Shown here piece by piece: positions 18,927-42,916 of a stretch of 64,000 nucleotides of DNA. Under the pieces are notes generated by a model. It worked only from the letters and a program-made list of their open reading frames with translations, had not been told where the DNA came from and did not search any database. The stretch is from Lasiosphaeria ovina (lineage: Eukaryota > Ascomycota > Sordariomycetes > Sordariales > Lasiosphaeriaceae). Position numbers and translations under genes: made by a program. The DNA lies in NCBI GenBank assembly GCA_033439765.1, contig JAULSN010000011.1, forward strand, positions 124,001 to 188,000. Reading direction: 5' to 3'. Position 1 is the stretch's first letter, and each line of letters opens with the position of its first letter.

Positions 18927-21744
18927 TCAAACAATGGTAACCCACACCCAGGGATCGTCCTTGGTGACAGGCCCCCACGAGCCGTCACCAGAGACGTGGA
19001 GGATCTTGTCCAGCGTGAGCTTCCCGTCGCGCTCTTCATCCCACTTTCTCGGCTCTTTCTCGTCCTCGTCCTCGCCATCCTGCGGCCCATCCTTCTTCAC
19101 ATCGGGCGGGTTCTTGACAAACACCGCCAAGCCAACGCGCACCGCATCGGCCAGCGCCTTGAAGCCCATGCCCTTGAGCGCCGGGTTCTCGCGGACGTTG
19201 CGGTTGACGTCGGGAGTGGTGAGGAGGTGCTCCGAGACGCCCTTGCCGAGCGGGTCGACGTACGTCTGCAGCCCGGCCTTGTTGGGCCGCACCACTAGCG
19301 CGTGCGCCGCGTCGAGGAACACGGCGTAGCACGGGAACAGCGACGCCTGGTCCTCGTCTGGTAGGTCGGCGTGCAGCTCCCCCACCGACACCCCGCGCCC
19401 GTCCTCCAGGTCGATGCTCACCGGGATCCCGTGGCGGTCCCATGCTTTCTTGGGCGTGTGCCGCTTGATCTCGTAGATGGGGGCCTGGGGGAGACAGGTC
19501 AGAAGCCGGGCTCAGAAATGGAAAGATAGGAGAAGACGGGACGAAGAGAAAAAGAAAGAACGAGAACAAAAGTTATGCTCACGCGTATGTCTATCCTCCC
19601 ATATTTGAGCCTCCCAACTCTCCGCAGATCGTCGGCCCTTTTCGGCGTGGTGTCAATCCCGGTCACCGTGGCGACGAGATTGCTGTAGCTCAGGGGTATG
19701 TACTTGATGGGCGCGTCGAGGCTGGCCCACGACCAAGTCGGGGCGCGGTAGTCTCTGGGCCTCGTCGCCGCGCCGACCCTCGCGCCCGTCTTCGGTACCG
19801 TCTGCATGCCCTTGGCGTCGCGGTCAAAGTACTCGTTGTAGCAGCAGACCCTCCAGCACAGGTCCTCGTAGATGTGGGCGGCCCACAGGCCGGCAAAGTA
19901 CGGGTCGCCCGTCTCGGTGGCGATGACGGTGGCCACGCCGGCGATGGCCGGCAGCTTGTCGTCGGCCACGGTGAGGCGCATGCGCGAGTACGTCTCGACG
20001 AGCGAGATCCAGCCACCTTCCCAGCGTCGGCCGCTAGTGGCCGCGTGCCGCCCGACAATGAAGCTGATGCCGCTGGCGCGCGGGATGCCGTGGTCCTCGC
20101 GCGCGATCAGCTGCGTGCGCAGCAGGTGCTGCAGGCTGAAGTAGATGTCGCTAAACACGAAGCCGTCTTCGGACCACATGCCCGTCTCGCACTCGTAGTA
20201 CATCTGGTCTCCCGCGTAATGTACGATGCGAGGTGATAGCATACGCTCCTGCAGCGTCCACCCGCGCGACGACAGCGGCTCGCCGGCGATGGGATCGAAG
20301 CGCCGCCCGAAGCTGCCGATGGCCGTGCGCTGCGGCGTGTGGAACGAAGACCCCGGCAGCCACTCGTCCTCCAGGAAGTGCACCGACGACGGCTTCTTGG
20401 CCGCGTCGGTCGAGTATGTAAATGCCATGGTATAGCGCCCTTCGCCCGAGGCCTCGCGCGGCGTGGCGTAGCCCAGCGAGCGCGTGCCCGGCGACACGTA
20501 GCTGTCCTTGGCGCGCTTGGGAAAGCAGCCGTAGTAGCTGTCGGTCGACGCGGCGGCGGCGACGGTGACGTAGGCGTTGCGATAGATGTATGCCATGTTG
20601 GCGGCCTCGACGTCCCAGTCGGCCAGGTCGTCCTGCACGATGCAGAGGCAGTCGATCCACAGGTACTTGAGCCCAAGGCGGCGCGTGATCTTGATGGCGT
20701 CCTGGAAGGTCTTGGGCAGGAAGGACGTGGCGATGCCCTCCTTGAGGTCGTTGATGGACTCGCGCGTCGCCATCAGCCGCGACGAAGTGCCCCAGCAGTG
20801 GCTCAGCGCCACGTACCGGCCCCGCTGGCCCGCCGTCTCGAGCAGGCACACGCCGCGGTCGTAGGCCGTCACGTCGATGACGCGCCGCGGGAGGTCGGGG
20901 TTGAGCTTTGGCGCACCACAAAAGGCGTGTTTGGAGCTGCAGTCGCCGATCCATTTCTCGACCCGCCGAAAGGCCGTGTCCGAGTCCGAGTGCAGCTCCC
21001 TCAGCCGGCCTGGGATGAAGCTGGCAAAGCTAGAGTCTAAGTAGTCAAGGTCAGCCAAGGCGGCTGTCACCACGGTTCTGGCGAGAGTTAAGTCGTCTGG
21101 TACTCACCGTCGTCGGTGCAGAGGCCAATGGAGCTTCCACACAGCTTGACCTGGTCAGGTCTCACCCCGTAGACATCAAACAGGCTCGCAGACTTTGCAA
21201 ACCGGGCACCAACGCCCATGAGACGCAGATGTGACACGTCGTTGGGCTGCTTGACGTCCTTCTCACGCTCGGCCCAGAAGTTTCCAAACACCCACGCGGG
21301 CATGTCGTCGGGCGGGTCGTCGATGCGCAGCCCCTCGAGCTTCAGCTCCTTGTCCTCGACATGCTCGCCGTCGGGGTTGGGCGCGCCGGTGGCCGCGATG
21401 ACGGCGCGGCCGCCCGGGTTGGGGCCCTTGAAGTCAGTGGCCGTGACGGGCATGCACGGGCCGAGCTCCTTCTGGTACGAGATGTCGCGGGCTGTCAGGT
21501 CCGTGTCGACGAGGCGTACCGCATCGAATTGCCGCCAGTACCCCCGCCCGTTGCGCACCCCGCGCGTGTCTCTGAAGCTCGAGAGGGCCGCCTTCAGCAC
21601 CATGCGGCACATTGGGCACCGCTGGGCCGACGCCTCGAGCGCCTTCCGCGTCCTGTGGTGCGGCGTGGCCGCCCGCGCCACGTCCTCGGGCTGGAGCTCA
21701 ACCCACGGGATCGCCCTGCACACGCTGCACAACCCGGCCGCCAT
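18927..21744 (-). CDS. HET-domain protein (heterokaryon incompatibility type)
   Basis: Exons 21744-21108, 21063-19583 and 19484-18927 give 891 aa. The first intron is only 44 bp (GTGAGT, CTTAAC branch, GACAG), and the second is 98 bp. The N-terminus has two Cys pairs (CSVC at 5-8 and CPMC near 42), as in many HET proteins. The HET domain starts near residue 296 with YVALSHCWG, followed by LPKTFQDAIKITRRLGLKYL, WIDCLCIVQDDLADW, MAYIYRNAYVTVAAAA. A long C-terminal region with SRGWTLQERMLSPRIVHYAG follows. HET domains trigger programmed cell death after non-self recognition between hyphae. No NACHT or repeat partner domain is present, so the ligand is unknown. The next gene downstream on the same strand side is a decayed HET copy of a different subtype. 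Confidence 0.85.
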
Positions 21745-35016: not shown

Positions 35017-35523
35017 TCAAGCCGCCCCCTTTCGTGCCTCTGTAAGCTTGGGCGGGTAGATGACCTCGAACCGTTCGCAGAGCACCATGCTGTCGTCGCC
35101 AAACAGCTGCCTCTGCGCCTCGGGCTTCTTCTGCTCCTCGGCGTTGTAGAACCACATGTGCCCTTCCCTATACTCGTTGTAGTCGCCCTCGGCCTCGGCA
35201 AGGGCAAAGTCCTCGGCGACGTCGCGGAAGAGGCAGCGAACGAAGGATGTGGTGCGCATGATGGCGCCCGGGGTTCCGTTGCCGTCGAGAATGATGGACA
35301 AGTCGCCGACGCCCCAGTGCATGGGATCCGGGACGGGCCACGACGTGGTTGCCGACTTCTTGCCCTGGATTGCTAGTGCCAGTTTCTCGTCGGCTAGTGC
35401 TGCGTTGTCTCCACTGAAGTTGAAGATGTCCTTGGGCGCCGGCAGCGTCGCGACGCCCATCTCGGCGCATGCCTTGGCCATGAAGGCGACAATGTCGGGG
35501 CGGCTGGGGCCCACGGCGGACAT
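35017..35523 (-). CDS. ASCH-domain protein
   Basis: Single exon, 168 aa, ATG at 35523. The ASCH fold signature is present: GKKSATTSW (the conserved G-K-K/S-x-T-T strand), VGDLSIILDGNGTPGAIMRT with the D-G-x-G-x-P turn, FRDVAEDFALAEAEGDY, and a terminal WFY-type strand. ASCH proteins have a PUA-like beta-barrel that binds RNA or modified nucleosides. Some small bacterial members are amidohydrolases of N4-acylcytidines. In fungi they are uncharacterised. Length and lack of introns fit a compact single-domain protein. It lies 352 bp downstream of the Dicer gene on the same strand. A functional tie is conceivable but unsupported. Confidence 0.82.
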   Translation of the reverse strand: MSAVGPSRPDIVAFMAKACAEMGVATLPAPKDIFNFSGDNAALADEKLALAIQGKKSATTSWPVPDPMHWGVGDLSIILDGNGTPGAIMRTTSFVRCLFRDVAEDFALAEAEGDYNEYREGHMWFYNAEEQKKPEAQRQLFGDDSMVLCERFEVIYPPKLTEARKGAA

Positions 35524-35875: not shown

Positions 35876-38800
35876 TCAGTCTGAAGCCTTGGCCGAAGAC
35901 GACAGGAAGAGCACAGCTTGGGCAGCGGCCTTGATCTGCACCTCGTCCTCGCTCAGACCACCATCAACCTCAGCCACCACCCGGCTGCCCACATAGACCA
36001 CGCAAGAAACATCCTGCTTGCCGCTTCCAGTCGCGGCCCCTTTCTCCACCTCGTACCTTATGGCCTGACTCCCCGCCGCCGCCTGCAGCTGCTCCTTGGG
36101 GTGAACCGTGTCGACGCCGTCGCGCAGGATGCGTCTGAGGTACGGCAGAACACCCATCCTCTCGAGCAGCGCCTCGCATGCCGCCAGCGACCCAGAGTCG
36201 ACGTACACGGCGCCGACCAGCGCCTCGACCACGTCGGCGCAAAAGTCACTCGCGCCAAGCCGCGCCATCTGTAGCCACGGATACGCGGCGCCCGAGGCAA
36301 CGGCTTCCTTGGTCTCGTCTCGCAGCTCCGCGTATCGCGTTTCCAGAGCCGCCATCTCGTCCGTCACCCCCGCCGAGCAGTGCTGCAGGAACCGACACAG
36401 CGGGAAGTCAACGCTGTACCGCTTCTCGCGGAACGGGCCCCGCGGCGACGCCCCGGCCTGCTGCACGTCGGTCCGCGTCCGCGACACGTGCCACTCCAGC
36501 GCGACGTAGCCGAGATATTGGCGGTTGACCAGCGCCGCGCGGTGCACCGTCATGCTGCCGCACGACGTCCGAGGCCCAGACGCGCCGCCGGCTGATGCAC
36601 CAGCGGAGAGCGAAAAGATGGCCTCGGACACGATGCTCTCGATGACGGCGTTGCCGAGGAACGCCAGCCGGTCGAGGCAGCCGTGCGCCTCCGCCGCGAA
36701 GTATGAGCTGTGCGTCAGCGCCTGCACGGCCAGCGCCTTCTTGTGGAACACGTAGCCGGCCAGCGTCTCGACCGTCCCCAGGTGCGCCGGCAGCGCCGCG
36801 TCGCTCGCGCTCACGTCGAACAGCTGCCGCCGCCCGACCTCGAGGCTCGGCAGGTCCACGTCGCCCACCAGGTGCTTGGTCCACGTCAGCGCCGTGCCCC
36901 AGCCGCCCGCCTGCTTGCCCGCGCCGATGAGCGCCTTGGCCGCGTGCGCGAGCGTCCTGCGTGCCACCCGCCGGCTGCTGGGGTCCTCGGCTATCAGTGT
37001 GTCTGTCTTGTCAACGTTGTCCGGGTCGACCTGCCGCCACTCCTCGGCATTGTGCCCCTTGGTAAGGAGGAACGGGTCCAGCTCCCGCTCCAGGGCAGCC
37101 CGGCACAGCCGCGAGTTGGAAATCACTCTTGCTCTGCCGGCCGTCAGGTAACCTTCCGGCCAGAGAGGGTCTGGTGGTTTGAAACCCGTCAGCTGAGAAC
37201 TTTTGTGTATTGTGGGGTGAGACAGTGAGAAGGTGAAAGACACTCACACTTTGTGGCGAAATGGACCGTCGTCAGAAGCTTCAGGCACGCGTCCCCGAGG
37301 AACTCGAGTTTCTGGTACTCTGGCTCCGCCCTGACCGGGGTGGTGATGGCGGAGCGGATCAAGTCAACGACATCGCTGTTGCTGCCGTTGACCACAGGAA
37401 GCCTTGTCTGCAGCTCCTTGGCGACCAGGTGTGCTTCCAGCTTGTACATGAGCTTAGACGTGCAGGCTTTGACCAAAAGACGTGTTGACGATGAACTGCG
37501 GTTCATTTGTGTTAAAGTTTTCAGCCCCTGAGAATTTCGAAAGGCGACAACCTGGCGTGGCTGCTCTTCGATGCTCGGGTCTGAATGCAGCGGTGAGAGC
37601 CGGGCCCTTCGCTGCTCCCCGTAGGCAGAGTAAAATTGGAAATGTTGCGGCTTGCCAAGCTCAACGGGGACCACGACGTGGAACTTGAACTGTGCGACGC
37701 CCTTGCTGTCCTCGAGCAGCATAACGTACGTTTGCGGTTCACCCTGCCTCGAATTGTCAGTGCGCGCCCATGGCTTGAACTGCTCCCGAATGTCGATCAT
37801 GGAAGACTCGTCCTGCACCCCCAGTTCCTCGTGGGTCAGAGGCAGCAAGTTCTCGTCGACGAGTTTGGCGTCGTACAGGCGCATATATGCTTCAAAGGCC
37901 GCGTCCTTGGACGCGTTCTGCTCCGACCGCCACGCCTGCTTGCTCCAGGTGATGCGCAGGGAGTAAGGGATGGATGCCGGCAGAACTACCTTTGCTCTCA
38001 TGAGAGGGAGCTCGCCGTCCGAAGCTGGCGGCGGCTGGTTGGCGAGCTCCTCGTAGACGTAGAAGGGCTGGTTGTCGCTATAGCGTCGTAACCCAGCGAC
38101 GGCACAGAACCGCTGCAGCCTGCCTTTGGCGTTTTCCATGTCCAGGATGGCTCCTGTAGTAGGCTCGGTGAACTCTCTGTCGGACGTCTCTCTGTCGGAC
38201 GTCTCTCTGTCTGCCATCTGGTTGCCAATGGCGCAGTCTCTGTCATCCCGGTCATACTGCGCCTTGAGCTGCTCCTCAATGCCTTCCCAGTCCGTGGCCT
38301 TGTCACGTTCTTCGTCGTCGATCAAGACAAAGTACTCGGACCCCGACTTCCTGGCCCTTCCGCGACGTTGGATGAAGGATTTTGGCGAGGCGGGCGGGTC
38401 GAAGCTAATAACGAGATTGCATGCTGACACGTCAATGCCTTCTTCCAAGACGCTCGTGGCGACCAGGAGGTTGAGTTTGCCGTTGCGAAACTGGTCGAGA
38501 ACTTTCGACTGCTCGGCTGGGTTGAAGATATCTCCGAGGTCTCGTCTGCCGCGGTCATGTTTCGACGACCCGACGACTGCGCCAACTCGGAACAGCTTGC
38601 TCAAGTCAGGGTGCAGAGACAGCAAGTGGTGAAGAACGACAAGGGTTGCTCGCTCGGTGACGAAAACAATTCCGCGGCTGCCGTCGTCGCCGCCGCGGTA
38701 GTGAGAGCACAGAATGCGAGCAAGACGCTCGACCTTGGCCGAGATGGAGGCCGACGAGGGTACCCGGGCCAGGGCGCGTGGATCGACCACGACGCGCTTC

Positions 38801-40245
38801 AGCAGGCGGGAAAGGTAGATTCTGGACGAGTAGTCCCAGGTCAGGAAACACGACTCGCTGGGCGCGCTTGCAGACTCAATAATCAGCGACGTGACCTTGG
38901 CAATGTAGAAGTCGGCAGCCAGGGTTCCAAGCTGCTCACACATGGCCTCTGCCCTCTCGCAAAACACCCTCAGCTGCTCGCGTACAAACGTCTTCTTGGT
39001 CTTGAGAGCCTGCTTGAGCTTTTCCCGGCTCCTCTCCGTGTTTTCAGTTCGCCAGCGGATGATGTCTGGGTCCGTTGCGATATCTAGGCCGTCCAGAATA
39101 GCCCGCATGCTAGTGATGCTCGCCAAACTGACGCTGGTGGGGCTCAAGCTGTAGTATTCAATGGTCAGGGTCGGCCTTTTGACGTGGGTCTGGAGGTTCT
39201 CGCGATGGAGTCGCGGGGTCTTGCAGGCTGCGTTGAGGGTGTCCTCGAGGCTCTTCAGCTTCTTGCCGTCGACTTTGTTCACCGGACTGGCGGTCAGTCC
39301 CAGGATGCGCGGAACGGGCCGTCCCGCGCCCTTGTCTCGCCAGAAGAACTGGTTCATGATCTTGCTTCCGGGGCTCTTGCCAACACAGTTGTGCGCTAGG
39401 ACCTGTTAGCCAGGCCATGATCATTTTTGCGAAGAGGGGTATGAGGCAGGGGTATAAGCATCACGACAAAACAAGGTGGTGACAGAATACAAAACGGACA
39501 GCATGGGGGTCTTACCCTCATCAAACACGATCAGCGCAATCGAGGCCATCTTCACGAAGCCATTAGAGAGGGCGTTCTGCAGGACGGCGTACGTAGCCAC
39601 GGCCACGCGGACATTGTCGAGGGCGGCGTCCCACAGCTTCTGGCTTCTCCAGCCGTCGACATTGTCGCGCGAGGAAAAGGATCGAATCTCGACGGAGCGG
39701 ATCTGCTGCTGCAGCGTCTTACACTGCTGCCGGCAGAGCTCCACCGTCCGGGTCAGGAACCAAATCTTCTGCATTGCGTGTTAGTTGCCATGATGTTATT
39801 ATGTAATGGACAGGGGAGACGGGTCACATGTTGCACCTTTCCTGAATCAATGCGTGCAAGCTCGTGCATGATCCGAAGCGCAGCCCTGTTTCCGTTTTGC
39901 CATCAGTCTCGCGTTCGGGGCCGGCGGTTCTGGGAGCAAGGGAGGCAGATAGTCCATGTTTCAATGGCGAAGACTTTGGGCAAGAGTAAGACTTACACCA
40001 GCGTCTTCCCGCTTCCAGTGTCCATCTGCAATGTGTTTGTCAGTAGTTATTTGAGCTATGACACTAGTGACACCAGTGATAGCGTTGTCAAATGACGTTC
40101 TTACCACCACCACAATGTTCTCCTTGATGCTCTTCTCATACATCTCGGTCTGATATGCCCTGGCCGTGACCGCGTCATTGTTCGTACCACCGGCCTCATT
40201 GTGTGCTGATACGCCCGCCGGAATTCCATTGGAGTTGATAAGCAT
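35876..40245 (-). CDS. Dicer-like protein 2 with disrupted RNase III active sites
   Basis: Six exons in coding order (40245-40105, 40025-39997, 39885-39837, 39768-39516, 39395-37248, 37170-35876) give 1304 aa with no frame break. Domains: DExD helicase with Walker A GSGKT (51-55, made by the 29-bp exon 2) and DEAH (156-159, made by a splice). Helicase C has VATSVLEEGIDV and FIQRRGRAR. A Dicer dimerisation domain follows (FCAVAGLRRYSDNQPFYVYE onward), then RNase IIIa (about 845-970), RNase IIIb (about 1005-1200) and a degenerate dsRBD-like end. This is the DCL2 type that makes siRNAs in antiviral RNA interference. Oddity: IIIa has LEFLGD (E855, D859) but LAHAAKAL where LADVVEAL is expected (H949, K952). 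IIIb has LAFLGN (A1043, N1047) for LEFLGD but an intact ADVVEALVGA (D1186, E1189). Both cleavage centres therefore look crippled. A 15-bp coding repeat (SDRET units) sits near 38174-38210. Confidence 0.93.
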
Positions 40246-41027: not shown

Positions 41028-42916
41028 ATGTCAACCACGACCAACGTCGCCTCAGACGAAAGCCATGGCACCGCCACCTGGAAGAAGCGATCCGTCGTCT
41101 CGTCCTTTATTTTCGACTTCGGGCACGGCGCAACAGACTCTCCGGAGGAGACAGATAGCAGCAGTAGCACCACGAGGCCGCGGGTCGCTCTCTTTCGCCG
41201 CAGCGGCAAGGTGTCGACGTACCAGTAGGTCACTGCCAGCTAGCACACTGCAACCACCTGAGACAATATATGTCATATCTTGACGAGCAAAGAAGCCGCC
41301 ATGGCGTCGGCCCCAAATGCTGAGCCGCAGACAGACACCACCTGGCGCCGATCTCCGGGTCCATCGACGCGGCCGACGCGTCGCCGCTCGCCGCCGCGTG
41401 GCGCGAGCTGGCCGAGGAGACGACGCTGACGGGCGCAGAGCTGGTCCTGCTGCGCCAGGGCAAGAGCTACACCTTCCGCGACGAGTCGGTGCGCCGCGAG
41501 TGGACCGTGTTTCCGTTCGCGTTCCGGCTGCGCACGCCCGCCGACGCGACCCGCATAGTCACCGACTGGGAGCATGAGACCTGGGGATGGCACAACCCCG
41601 CTGTCGTCATTCGTCTCGCAGAGCGCGGCGCCAGCCTGGCAGAATCTGGCGATGACCTGAACGGCGTCCCCCGCCTCGCCGACAGCCTGCGGCGCGTGTG
41701 GTTCGAGGCCGACCTCGGCGATGCTGCGGGACGAGTGCTGGCGACTGGCCTCGACGCGTTGGCGACGGACCACCAGAGCGGCGCGCGGCAGCTGGCCACG
41801 GCCGCGCTGCGGACGCTCCGTGACATCGTCGCCTCGCTCGACTACTCGCCGGCGTCGCCGATGGCTGACCCCGCGTGGTGGTGGGCCCAAGTGGGTATGG
41901 CGGCGTGGCACCTGTGGAAGAATGGCCGCGAGAGCATGGGTGCGGCCATCATGAGCGCGCTGCTGGCTGCACTGGCCGAGATTGGAGACGCGATGCACTC
42001 CCAACAAGAGCAGCAGCACCAGTCGCGATTCGTGATATCCACTGCATGGCGTGACTCGGTCGTCGCCCAGCTGGACCGCCGCATCGCCGCGCGGGCCGAG
42101 TCGGCACAGCGCGTGTCGGCGGCGTTTGCGCAGTATCTCGAGGGGGCATTCGGCGACAAACTGGCATCGCGCGAGCCGCTGGCAGTGCTGACGCTGTCCG
42201 AGAGCTCGACGATACGGGCAGGGCTGCGGCACGCGGCGCACGCGGCGGGCTTCGCGCTCGACGTGCGCGTGCTCGAGTCGCGCCCGCTGTTTGAGGGCGT
42301 GTCGCTGGCGAGCGCGCTGGCGCAGGACCTTGCCGCTACCACCACCACCACTACTGCCGCCGCCGCCGCCTCCGCGCACACCATCACTCTGTTCTCAGAC
42401 GCGTCAGCGGCGCTCGCCGCGCAGGGCGTCGACGTGGTCGTCATTGGCGCGGACCGCATCGCGTCTTCAGGGGCCGTCAGCAACAAGACGGGCTCGCTTC
42501 CTGCCGTGCTGAGCGTAAAGTACGTGAATACGGGCAGTGGCGGCAGTGTCTCGGGCCAAGAAGGAGGAGCCAGGGTCGTTGTTCTGGGCGAGACGGACAA
42601 GATTGCGCTCCCCGGGCGGCCCGAGGAGCATGTCGTTGAGGACAACGACGCCGGCCAGCTCAGCCGCTCGTGGGCAGTCGAGGACAGTAGCGCGCGGGTC
42701 AGGGACGCGGCAACGGCACTGCAGAGTCTGCGCACGGATAGTAGCACAGGGAGCAGGGGGCCCAAGGTCTCGATCCGGAATGTTTTCTTCGAGTGGGTGC
42801 CGGCTGGCCTGATCGATGTCTACATCACAGAATCGGGACAGTGGAGTGTGCAGGATATTTCAGAGCACTCTGAAAAGCTCCGGGACGAAGAGGAACGGCT
42901 CTTGGGTGAATTGTAA
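41028..42916 (+). CDS. Nudix domain fused to an eIF-2B alpha/beta/delta-like domain
   Basis: Exons 41028-41224 and 41335-42916 with a 110-bp intron give 592 aa. An in-frame ATG at 40929 would add 33 residues (Arg/Ser/Leu-rich, possibly a mitochondrial presequence) but has a poor context. The ATG at 41028 has A at -3 and was preferred. The N-terminal part has KKRSVVSSFIF and, completed by the splice, a Nudix-like box GSIDAADASPLAAAWRELAE followed by ET. It keeps RELxEE but has D for the first Glu and one extra residue. The C-terminal half is the eIF-2B/MtnA Rossmann fold: LTLSESSTIRAGLRHA, VDVVVIGADRIASSGAVSNK, and VVVLGETDKIALPG. This two-domain arrangement occurs in fungi, usually labelled as initiation factor 2B-related. 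It is not a canonical eIF2B subunit, and its substrate is unknown. Confidence 0.85.

Follow-up and report, generated by a model that had tools for sequence, protein, structure and literature searches.

Dicers are defined by cutting. The Lasiosphaeria ovina genome encodes a third Dicer-like protein in which both RNase III centres lack catalytic acids, and the locus raises the question of whether such a protein can dice double-stranded RNA (dsRNA) and, if it cannot, what it is retained for. The gene, designated DCL2b, is located on the minus strand (40245-35876) of the window, which is the whole 64-kb stretch of DNA analysed. It encodes a DCL2-like protein of 1304 amino acids plus stop. Six exons (40245-40105, 40025-39997, 39885-39837, 39768-39516, 39395-37248 and 37170-35876) join into one open frame; their borders are predicted, as read from splice motifs and homology. 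The features of the gene are as follows.

35876..40245, minus strand: third Dicer-like gene, the putative pseudo-Dicer DCL2b, whole (six exons); stop-free spliced frame, Pfam DEAD, Helicase_C, Dicer_dimer and two RNase III stretches
39268..40167, minus strand: helicase N-terminal domain, residues 27-200 (motifs and Pfam)
38350..38733, minus strand: helicase C-terminal domain, residues 379-506, with RRGRAR (Pfam)
37828..38127, minus strand: DUF283 / Dicer dimerisation domain, residues 581-680
37468..37821, minus strand: shortened linker at the PAZ/platform place of Dicers, residues 683-800 (DUF283-to-IIIa motif length)
36836..37365, minus strand: RNase IIIa domain, residues 835-985, with the last intron inside (Pfam)
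37291..37305, minus strand: kept half of IIIa, E855 and D859 (spliced translation)
36935..36946, minus strand: predicted dead half of IIIa, H949 and K952 (D114 and E117 of E. coli RNase III)
36125..36781, minus strand: RNase IIIb domain, residues 1004-1222 (Pfam)
36650..36664, minus strand: predicted dead half of IIIb, A1043 and N1047 (E41 and D45 of E. coli RNase III)
36224..36235, minus strand: kept half of IIIb, D1186 and E1189 (spliced translation)
35891..36124, minus strand: C-terminal region, residues 1223-1300, possibly dsRBD-like (weak)

DCL2b shares the domain order of ordinary fungal DCL2 (helicase, DUF283, RNase IIIa, RNase IIIb and C-terminal region) and is 36-44% identical to it in the local alignments listed, most of which extend over half of the query. 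A Dicer-type DExD/H helicase (PF00270, 67.1 bits; PF00271, 67.6 bits), a DUF283 dimerisation domain (PF03368, 68.2 bits) and a tandem RNase III pair (PF00636, two stretches, 96.5 bits) are present, and the best match in the PDB is AncD1D2 (9mw6, E 4.5e-63). The helicase motifs GSGKT (residue 51), DEAH (156) and RRGRAR (501) are undamaged, the Walker A GSGKT being encoded by the 29-nt exon 40025-39997, and only 26 residues are located N-terminal to the helicase. A Pfam scan of the protein yielded no dsrm match and a standard dsRBD was not confirmed; in the relative P0006 the C-terminal dsRBD signal is 22.9 bits, with a cut-off of 23. Third-position codon GC is 0.66-0.87 per domain. The Pfam scan of 20 open frames of the window identified no RNA-interference domain among the neighbours.

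The DUF283 domain and the IIIa motif are separated by 172 residues, compared with at least 286 in 159 of 160 other fungal proteins, so that the linker preceding IIIa is ~110-120 residues shorter than in fungal DCL2. In the comparison with Dicer chains for a PAZ fold in the linker, the alignments that span the whole 314-residue model have RMSDs of 14.7-19.3 Å, and a reduced PAZ-like fold may remain. The shortening of the PAZ region weakens the claim that RNA would be held in the normal dicing geometry.

Instead of the four catalytic acids per RNase III domain of a Dicer, the IIIa columns of DCL2b contain E855, D859, H949 and K952 (EDHK), and the IIIb columns contain A1043, N1047, D1186 and E1189 (ANDE). 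The corresponding motifs begin at residues 854 (LEFLGD), 947 (LAHAAKAL), 1042 (LAFLGN) and 1185 (ADVVEAL). The complete EDDE/EDDE set occurs in 175 of 186 aligned rows, and 8 of the other 11 belong to the DCL2b clade described below; the remaining three are P0073 and P0157, each with one D to N change, and P0136, with an alignment gap. P0157 is an insect ribonuclease 3 and P0073 is the ordinary DCL2 of L. miniovina. A sequencing error or frameshift is ruled out because the frame is open and the same residues appear in proteins of other genomes, a recurrence that, with 175 rows intact, also argues against chance. Since the two catalytic centres of an RNase III dimer lie apart, it is unlikely that the two kept halves join as one working centre.

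Alignment to E. coli RNase III places H949 at D114, K952 at E117, A1043 at E41 and N1047 at D45. Aquifex E110 is presumably the counterpart of E. coli E117. The passages of PMC8708148 that bear on these residues report that E. coli E117K, E117A and E117Q are inactive in vivo and in vitro while retaining dsRNA binding (Table 1), and that E41A and D45N have weak activity even in excess Mg and lowered dsRNA binding. By their titles, PDB entry 1rc7 is a solved complex of Aquifex RNase III E110K with dsRNA and 2ez6 is a complex of Aquifex D44N with cleavage product, which indicates that the D44N change alone need not stop cutting. Dcr-2 D1217N/D1476N is described, in an excerpt of PMC9279154, as having no dicing activity and as holding dsRNA in the RNase centre. 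By alignment, K952 and N1047 thus coincide with engineered substitutions that weaken or eliminate cleavage. The engineered proteins carry the same letters at equivalent residues but are laboratory-made, whereas the DCL2b changes are natural and conserved. The initial annotation had proposed that half of each quartet is lost, that the six-exon coding sequence and the helicase motifs are undamaged, and that neither strand is cut normally. The losses are confirmed by the spliced 1304-residue translation, in which the four codons read CAC (H), AAG (K), GCG (A) and AAC (N); the single open frame retains GSGKT, DEAH and RRGRAR; and abnormal cutting of both strands is well supported by analogy with the E. 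coli E117K/A/Q, D45N and E41A mutants. The residues predict that DCL2b does not cut dsRNA into small RNAs, and the protein is very probably a pseudoenzyme.

In a tree computed with the eight catalytic columns blanked, the L. ovina protein and seven relatives (six from Sordariales and one from Microascales) form a clade with 100/100 support. Its sister comprises four Leotiomycete second DCL2 proteins (Phialocephala, Acephala, Leptodontidium and Cadophora; P0007-P0010; 100/100), which differ from DCL2b in their intact EDDE/EDDE quartets and linkers of 292-295 residues. The twelve together are supported at 100/100, and this DCL2b grouping (P0001-P0010 and P0124; 12 rows) is monophyletic and separate from ordinary DCL2, also at 100/100, as a paralogue clade. 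With the sister group intact, a single loss of catalysis on the stem leading to the clade of eight is probable. Lys at 952 and Ala or Ser in place of Glu at 1043 each occur in 8/8 members and in 0/160 other fungal Dicers examined. L. ovina shares the EDHK/ANDE set with L. miniovina and P. didyma (Podospora didyma), and the sets of Madurella mycetomatis, Immersiella and Cercophora are almost identical to it. Both acids of the IIIb dead half are absent together in 7/8 members, and the kept IIIb pair is D or E at 1186 in 8/8 and E at 1189 in 7/8, P0006 having K at the latter position. A functional-divergence comparison of the groups lists 23 switching columns, among them the four dead catalytic ones. 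Among members with covering gene models, GSGKT is present in 6/7, DEAH in 7/7 and QRRGRAR in 7/7; P0124 reads QQRGRAR. The P0005 model lacks GSGKT, likely through a missed exon, since in L. ovina this motif is located in a 29-nt exon, and in the P0006 model seven residues are missing from the helicase C-terminal domain. The P0124 model lacks the first half of IIIa, so its first two catalytic letters were left uncounted, and the sequence itself was used for its third letter (D), as the alignments place that residue differently.

The distribution is patchy, with the pseudo-Dicer in 8 of 168 fungal proteins examined, and eight members is a lower bound. The first homologue search scored 8000 candidates, of which the best 120 of 934 matches were listed; a region search with P0006 returned 52 proteins, adding P0124 and missing the known member P0004; and a profile search identified no further member among the best 120 of 916 matches. 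The L. ovina genome also encodes DCL1 and an ordinary DCL2, both with intact quartets, which rules out a genome devoid of another Dicer. Among the matches listed, ordinary DCL2 was found in at least 5/8 clade species, including L. miniovina, M. mycetomatis, D. grovesii and C. gorgonifer, and none was found for P. didyma, Immersiella or Cercophora.

Constraint on the dead domains was measured by protein distances. Between L. ovina and L. miniovina, DCL2b is 96.0% identical in IIIa and 95.0% in IIIb, compared with 89.8% and 87.8% for active DCL2. Between L. ovina and M. mycetomatis the identities are 57.1% for DCL2b and 66.8% for DCL2 in IIIa, and 55.1% and 60.5%, respectively, in IIIb. On these comparisons the dead RNase III domains appear still constrained, though drifting somewhat more at greater depth. 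The RNase III/helicase distance ratios for five species pairs are 0.75, 1.43, 1.64, 1.37 and 1.37 for the pseudo-Dicer and 1.99, 1.41, 1.25, 1.25 and 1.29 for DCL2, with intervals overlapping in all five pairs, which share species and are non-independent. In three pairs lacking a DCL2 counterpart the ratio is 2.16 (L. ovina/P. didyma), 1.55 (Immersiella/Cercophora) and, for an intact pair from Leotiomycetes, 0.95; constraint may therefore have relaxed to some extent once catalysis was lost. The initial annotation had entertained a recent loss of function and had called for an alignment with relatives' Dicers and a search for a second DCL2 in the genome. The alignment shows the substitutions to be clade-wide, which rules out a recent loss, a proposal also at odds with the continued constraint, and the second DCL2 is the intact one noted above. 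Because the relatives keep the same broken RNase III centres, DCL2b is probably a functional, non-cutting RNA-handling protein rather than a decaying gene.

The reading favoured on balance is a conserved pseudo-Dicer that would work in trans beside active DCL2, binding dsRNA without dicing it; for the trans role taken separately, the chances fall a little short of even. Both RNase III sites of an old DCL2 paralogue would have been disabled on the stem leading to the sampled Sordariomycete clade, and the gene retained ever since. Its helicase may still bind and move along dsRNA, and its RNase III pair may still form an RNA-holding valley in which K952 would stand in for a metal ligand, leaving the RNA held and uncut. 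The protein, a helicase that would bind dsRNA but not dice it, would then most likely modulate the dicing done by active DCL2. Its effect could be that of a brake or that of a cofactor; these two alternatives are forms of the same explanation and their odds overlap.

DRH-1 of C. elegans and mammalian LGP2 have no RNase III domains, LGP2 being a helicase without nuclease. DCL2b differs in having two RNase III stretches; the likeness, in the excerpted literature, is that of Dicer/RIG-I type helicases that modulate a true Dicer without a nuclease of their own. As a brake or sponge, DCL2b would compete with DCL2 for dsRNA ends or join it in a dead complex, dampening RNA interference. This is somewhat unlikely as a specific form, although it rests on the same parts as the pseudo-Dicer explanation: in the passages of PMC5813259 concerned, LGP2 inhibits Dicer processing of long dsRNA, but beyond mere substrate competition. 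A non-dicing cofactor, whose motor loads or translocates dsRNA for active DCL2, is a fairly unlikely alternative. The helicase motif conservation and the ordinary DCL2 of at least five clade species (among the matches listed) are consistent with it, as is the precedent of DRH-1, a helicase working with worm DCR-1; however, DRH-1 binds Dicer via its own N-terminal domain (as excerpted from PMC11095941), for which the 26 pre-helicase residues of DCL2b leave little counterpart, and P0124 departs from the QRRGRAR motif.

That DCL2b senses dsRNA and signals in the way of RIG-I-like receptors, instead of feeding RNA interference, is improbable. The helicase is related to RIG-I, MDA5 and LGP2 chains and the nuclease acids are lost, but the Pfam scan of the protein shows no signalling domain, and we know of no fungal downstream pathway for such signalling. 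Residual nicking, in which IIIb with D1186 and E1189 cuts one strand weakly, is very improbable: the conserved kept pair, the weakly active E. coli single mutants (PMC8708148, as excerpted) and the product-bound Aquifex D44N speak for it, whereas both other IIIb acids are gone in 7/8 members, E1189 is K in P0006, and the Dcr-2 double mutant D1217N/D1476N does not dice (PMC9279154, as excerpted). Decay through recent or drifting loss, for which the few species found (only eight, as a minimum), the shortened linker, the somewhat greater divergence of the RNase III domains at depth and the one catalytic change in the ordinary DCL2 of L. miniovina could be cited, is the least probable, given substitutions common to several genera and two orders, an open frame and a closest pair more constrained than active DCL2.

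The nearest natural likeness in fungi is Mucor R3B2, described in passages of PMC4395119 as an RNase III whose catalytic acids are altered and which is nonetheless needed for RNA silencing; it differs in having one RNase III domain and two dsRBDs, no helicase and a distribution limited to Mucorales, and it is not a Dicer. No naturally catalytically dead Dicer was found among the titles and abstracts listed in searches of open-licence PMC papers. The words 'inactive' and 'degenerate' are absent from the main text of a 2025 survey of 1592 fungal proteomes, the available passages of which do not treat catalytic-residue loss (PMC12663654). Tentatively, the conserved pseudo-Dicer may be a selected one, a whole Dicer remodelled as a dsRNA receptor that does not cut and that, in fungi, either controls a true Dicer or signals dsRNA; its active sites would be fixed to the kinds of substitution with which structural biologists trap RNase III and Dicer on RNA. 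If so, the dsRNA-handling functions of Dicer would be selectable separately from dicing, a full Dicer having been kept in several genera and two orders. DCL2b would then provide a natural test of the helicase and RNase III shell without cleavage, with an active-type DCL2 in the same fungus for comparison.

The gene for the Dicer-like protein DCL2b occupies the minus strand of the window, and its spliced frame of 1304 residues contains no internal stop. The exon borders are predicted from splice motifs and homology. It lies among the following features (ASCH is an RNA-related domain):

Features of the window
40245 to 35876, minus strand: DCL2b gene, six exons
41324-42913, plus strand: NUDIX and IF-2B open frame, upstream of DCL2b on the opposite strand
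35017-35514, minus strand: small ASCH-domain frame, downstream of DCL2b
19502-21073, minus strand: open frame with a HET (heterokaryon incompatibility) domain, PF06985 at 105.4 bits
9612-9692, plus strand: tRNA gene (Rfam, 49 bits)

Pfam matches in DCL2b are to the DEAD/ResIII helicase, helicase C-terminal and Dicer dimerisation domains, together with two stretches of RNase III, IIIa and IIIb. The catalytic columns, EDDE in each intact domain, are E855, D859, H949 and K952 in IIIa and A1043, N1047, D1186 and E1189 in IIIb. Alignment with the translated RNase III of E. coli K-12 equates H949 with D114, K952 with E117, A1043 with E41 and N1047 with D45. The initial annotation had described changed catalytic residues in both centres; the columns, EDHK and ANDE, bear this out, and its residue numbers and codons proved exact when re-read from the spliced gene.

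A protein search with DCL2b scored 8000 candidates and matched 934 proteins, and six stood apart by score among the best 120 of these. One more, an incomplete protein of Cephalotrichum gorgonifer (P0124), came from a region search, and a profile search found no further member among the best 120 of 916 matches. The eight proteins, termed here the dead clade, belong to the Sordariales except Cephalotrichum (Microascales), L. miniovina and Cercophora sp. LCS_1 being placed by genus.

Dead-clade members, with identity to DCL2b and catalytic columns (IIIa/IIIb)
Lasiosphaeria ovina DCL2b: EDHK/ANDE
L. miniovina: 94%, EDHK/ANDE
Podospora didyma: 60%, EDHK/ANDE
Madurella mycetomatis: 55%, EEHK/ANDE
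Immersiella caudata: 51%, EDHK/ANEE
Cercophora sp. LCS_1: 49%, EDHK/SNDE
Diplogelasinospora grovesii: 52% (covering 55% of the query), EDDK/ADDK
Cephalotrichum gorgonifer P0124: IIIa D..K, IIIb A..N and D..E; first half of IIIa missing from the gene model

The catalytic alignment comprised all 185 retrieved proteins and DCL2b, and 175 of the 186 rows retain EDDE/EDDE. Lysine at position 952 occurs in all eight dead-clade members and in none of 160 fungal proteins outside it. The substitutions are thus clade-wide, and the recent loss of function entertained in the initial annotation is contradicted. Three rows outside the clade depart from the intact set: P0136 has an alignment gap, while P0157, a ribonuclease 3 from an insect, and P0073, the ordinary DCL2 of L. 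miniovina, each show a single D-to-N change. In P0073 the asparagine (FSNMFEAV) lies at the IIIb column of residue 1186; since it replaces a nearly fixed aspartate, which the ordinary DCL2 of L. ovina keeps, this IIIb domain may be weakened too.

In a 24-row tree, computed under a mixture model with the eight catalytic columns blanked, the eight degenerate proteins form one clade (support 100/100). Its sister group is made up of four Leotiomycete proteins whose quartets are intact, and the twelve together are also supported at 100/100. The ordinary DCL2 proteins of L. ovina, L. miniovina, M. mycetomatis and D. grovesii are placed elsewhere, and a broader tree of 69 rows, built with a simpler model, gives the same picture. 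The sister proteins (P0007-P0010, from Phialocephala, Acephala, Leptodontidium and Cadophora) represent a second-type DCL2, which Phialocephala subalpina carries besides an ordinary DCL2 (P0076). By parsimony, E952K and the loss of E1043 would be earliest, on the stem of all eight, and D949H would have arisen later, in the common stem of all members but Diplogelasinospora and Cephalotrichum (six proteins). D1047N, present in seven of the eight, would be a parallel change or else have reverted in Diplogelasinospora; the branch placing Cephalotrichum outside has support of only 90/88.

A second change concerns the linker between DUF283 and the IIIa motif, where Dicers carry a platform and PAZ ruler. 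This stretch spans 172-183 residues in six dead-clade members, whereas 159 of the 160 fungal proteins outside the clade have at least 286. The one shorter protein among them, P0120, is probably an alternative gene model, since its tree distance to P0116, from the same species, is zero. The stretch measures 334 residues in Diplogelasinospora and 146 in P0124, whose model is incomplete. An AlphaFold2 model of DCL2b residues 560-873 (mean pLDDT 83.4, pTM 0.58) shows a DUF283 fold, a small strand set and a long helix; whole-model alignments to Dicer chains gave RMSDs of 14.7-19.3 Å.

Between L. ovina and L. miniovina, DCL2b is 96.0% identical in IIIa and 95.0% in IIIb, similar to its N-terminal (94.3%) and C-terminal (95.0%) helicase parts, whereas the active DCL2 of the same pair falls lower (IIIa 89.8%, IIIb 87.8%). 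With narrower column sets, DCL2b divergence in this pair comes to 4.1% for the RNase III domains and 10.0% for the linker. The RNase III/helicase distance ratios in five species pairs are 0.75, 1.43, 1.64, 1.37 and 1.37 for DCL2b and 1.99, 1.41, 1.25, 1.25 and 1.29 for DCL2, with overlapping bootstrap intervals in all five pairs, which share species. At depth, between L. ovina and M. mycetomatis, identity is lower in DCL2b than in DCL2 (IIIa 57.1% versus 66.8%, IIIb 55.1% versus 60.5%). Pairs without a DCL2 counterpart gave ratios of 2.16 (L. ovina/P. didyma), 1.55 (Immersiella/Cercophora) and 0.95 (the intact Leotiomycete pair). The deep identities and the latter ratios make some relaxation after catalytic loss possible. 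Free decay of DCL2b does not match the protein-level comparisons.

The window sits on contig C3 of the 51.7-Mb L. ovina genome, in which searches with the RNase III family and the DCL2b protein identified three Dicers (DCL1, ordinary DCL2 and DCL2b) and, on contig C28, a single-domain RNase III. DCL1, on C29, has intact LEFLGD/IADVCEAL and LEWLGD/LPDVVEAY motifs. The second DCL2 paralogue proposed as a check is present on C28 with its catalytic acids intact; an 829-residue run of its database entry, P0108, is identical to the C28 frame. RdRP and Piwi-domain genes also occur. Three RdRP genes have long frames (C30:1507393, C29:3154851, C5:412151-414138), and of the RdRP-like pieces (C5:4324-5910, C30:328202-330106, C31:317065-317382) some contain in-frame stops, which may lie in introns. 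Four Piwi-domain loci have long matches (C23:3997546, C30:2557731, C23:2589880, C1:7782928-7783928), with additional fragments on C11 and C28, a number that looks high against the two Argonautes of Neurospora.

Engineered mutants offer a guide to function. E. coli RNase III E117K is reported to lose cutting and keep dsRNA binding, and E41A and D45N to bind poorly and to be weakly active when Mg is in excess (PMC8708148). The D1217N/D1476N mutant of Drosophila Dicer-2, whose changes correspond to Aquifex D44N, is described as lacking dicing activity, its complex stopping while dsRNA occupies the RNase III centre (PMC9279154); chain 8hf1 has N at the column of DCL2b N1047. By their PDB titles, 1rc7 is Aquifex RNase III E110K with dsRNA and 2ez6 is the D44N enzyme with cleavage product, so D44N alone need not stop cutting. 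DCL2b has an E117K-type change in IIIa and a D45N-type change plus loss of E41 in IIIb, from which we infer that it would hold or scan dsRNA without dicing it. By analogy, the impairment of the matching mutants gives good support to the earlier proposal that neither strand can be cut normally.

Because this genome also encodes an active-type DCL2, DCL2b would most likely serve to modulate that enzyme, as cofactor or brake. As a cofactor it would help DCL2 as DRH-1 does worm Dicer, with which DRH-1 is reported to act (PMC11095941); as a brake it would restrain DCL2 in the manner of LGP2, the precedent for this form (PMC5813259).

The Mucor protein R3B2, a fungal RNase III whose acids are naturally altered, is reported to be required for silencing (PMC4395119); unlike DCL2b, it is not a Dicer. 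Literature searches found no report of a naturally dead Dicer among the titles and abstracts listed, and the words inactive and degenerate are absent from the main text of a 2025 fungal Dicer survey (PMC12663654). DCL2b and its relatives are a conserved pseudo-Dicer clade, whose predicted role would be testable.
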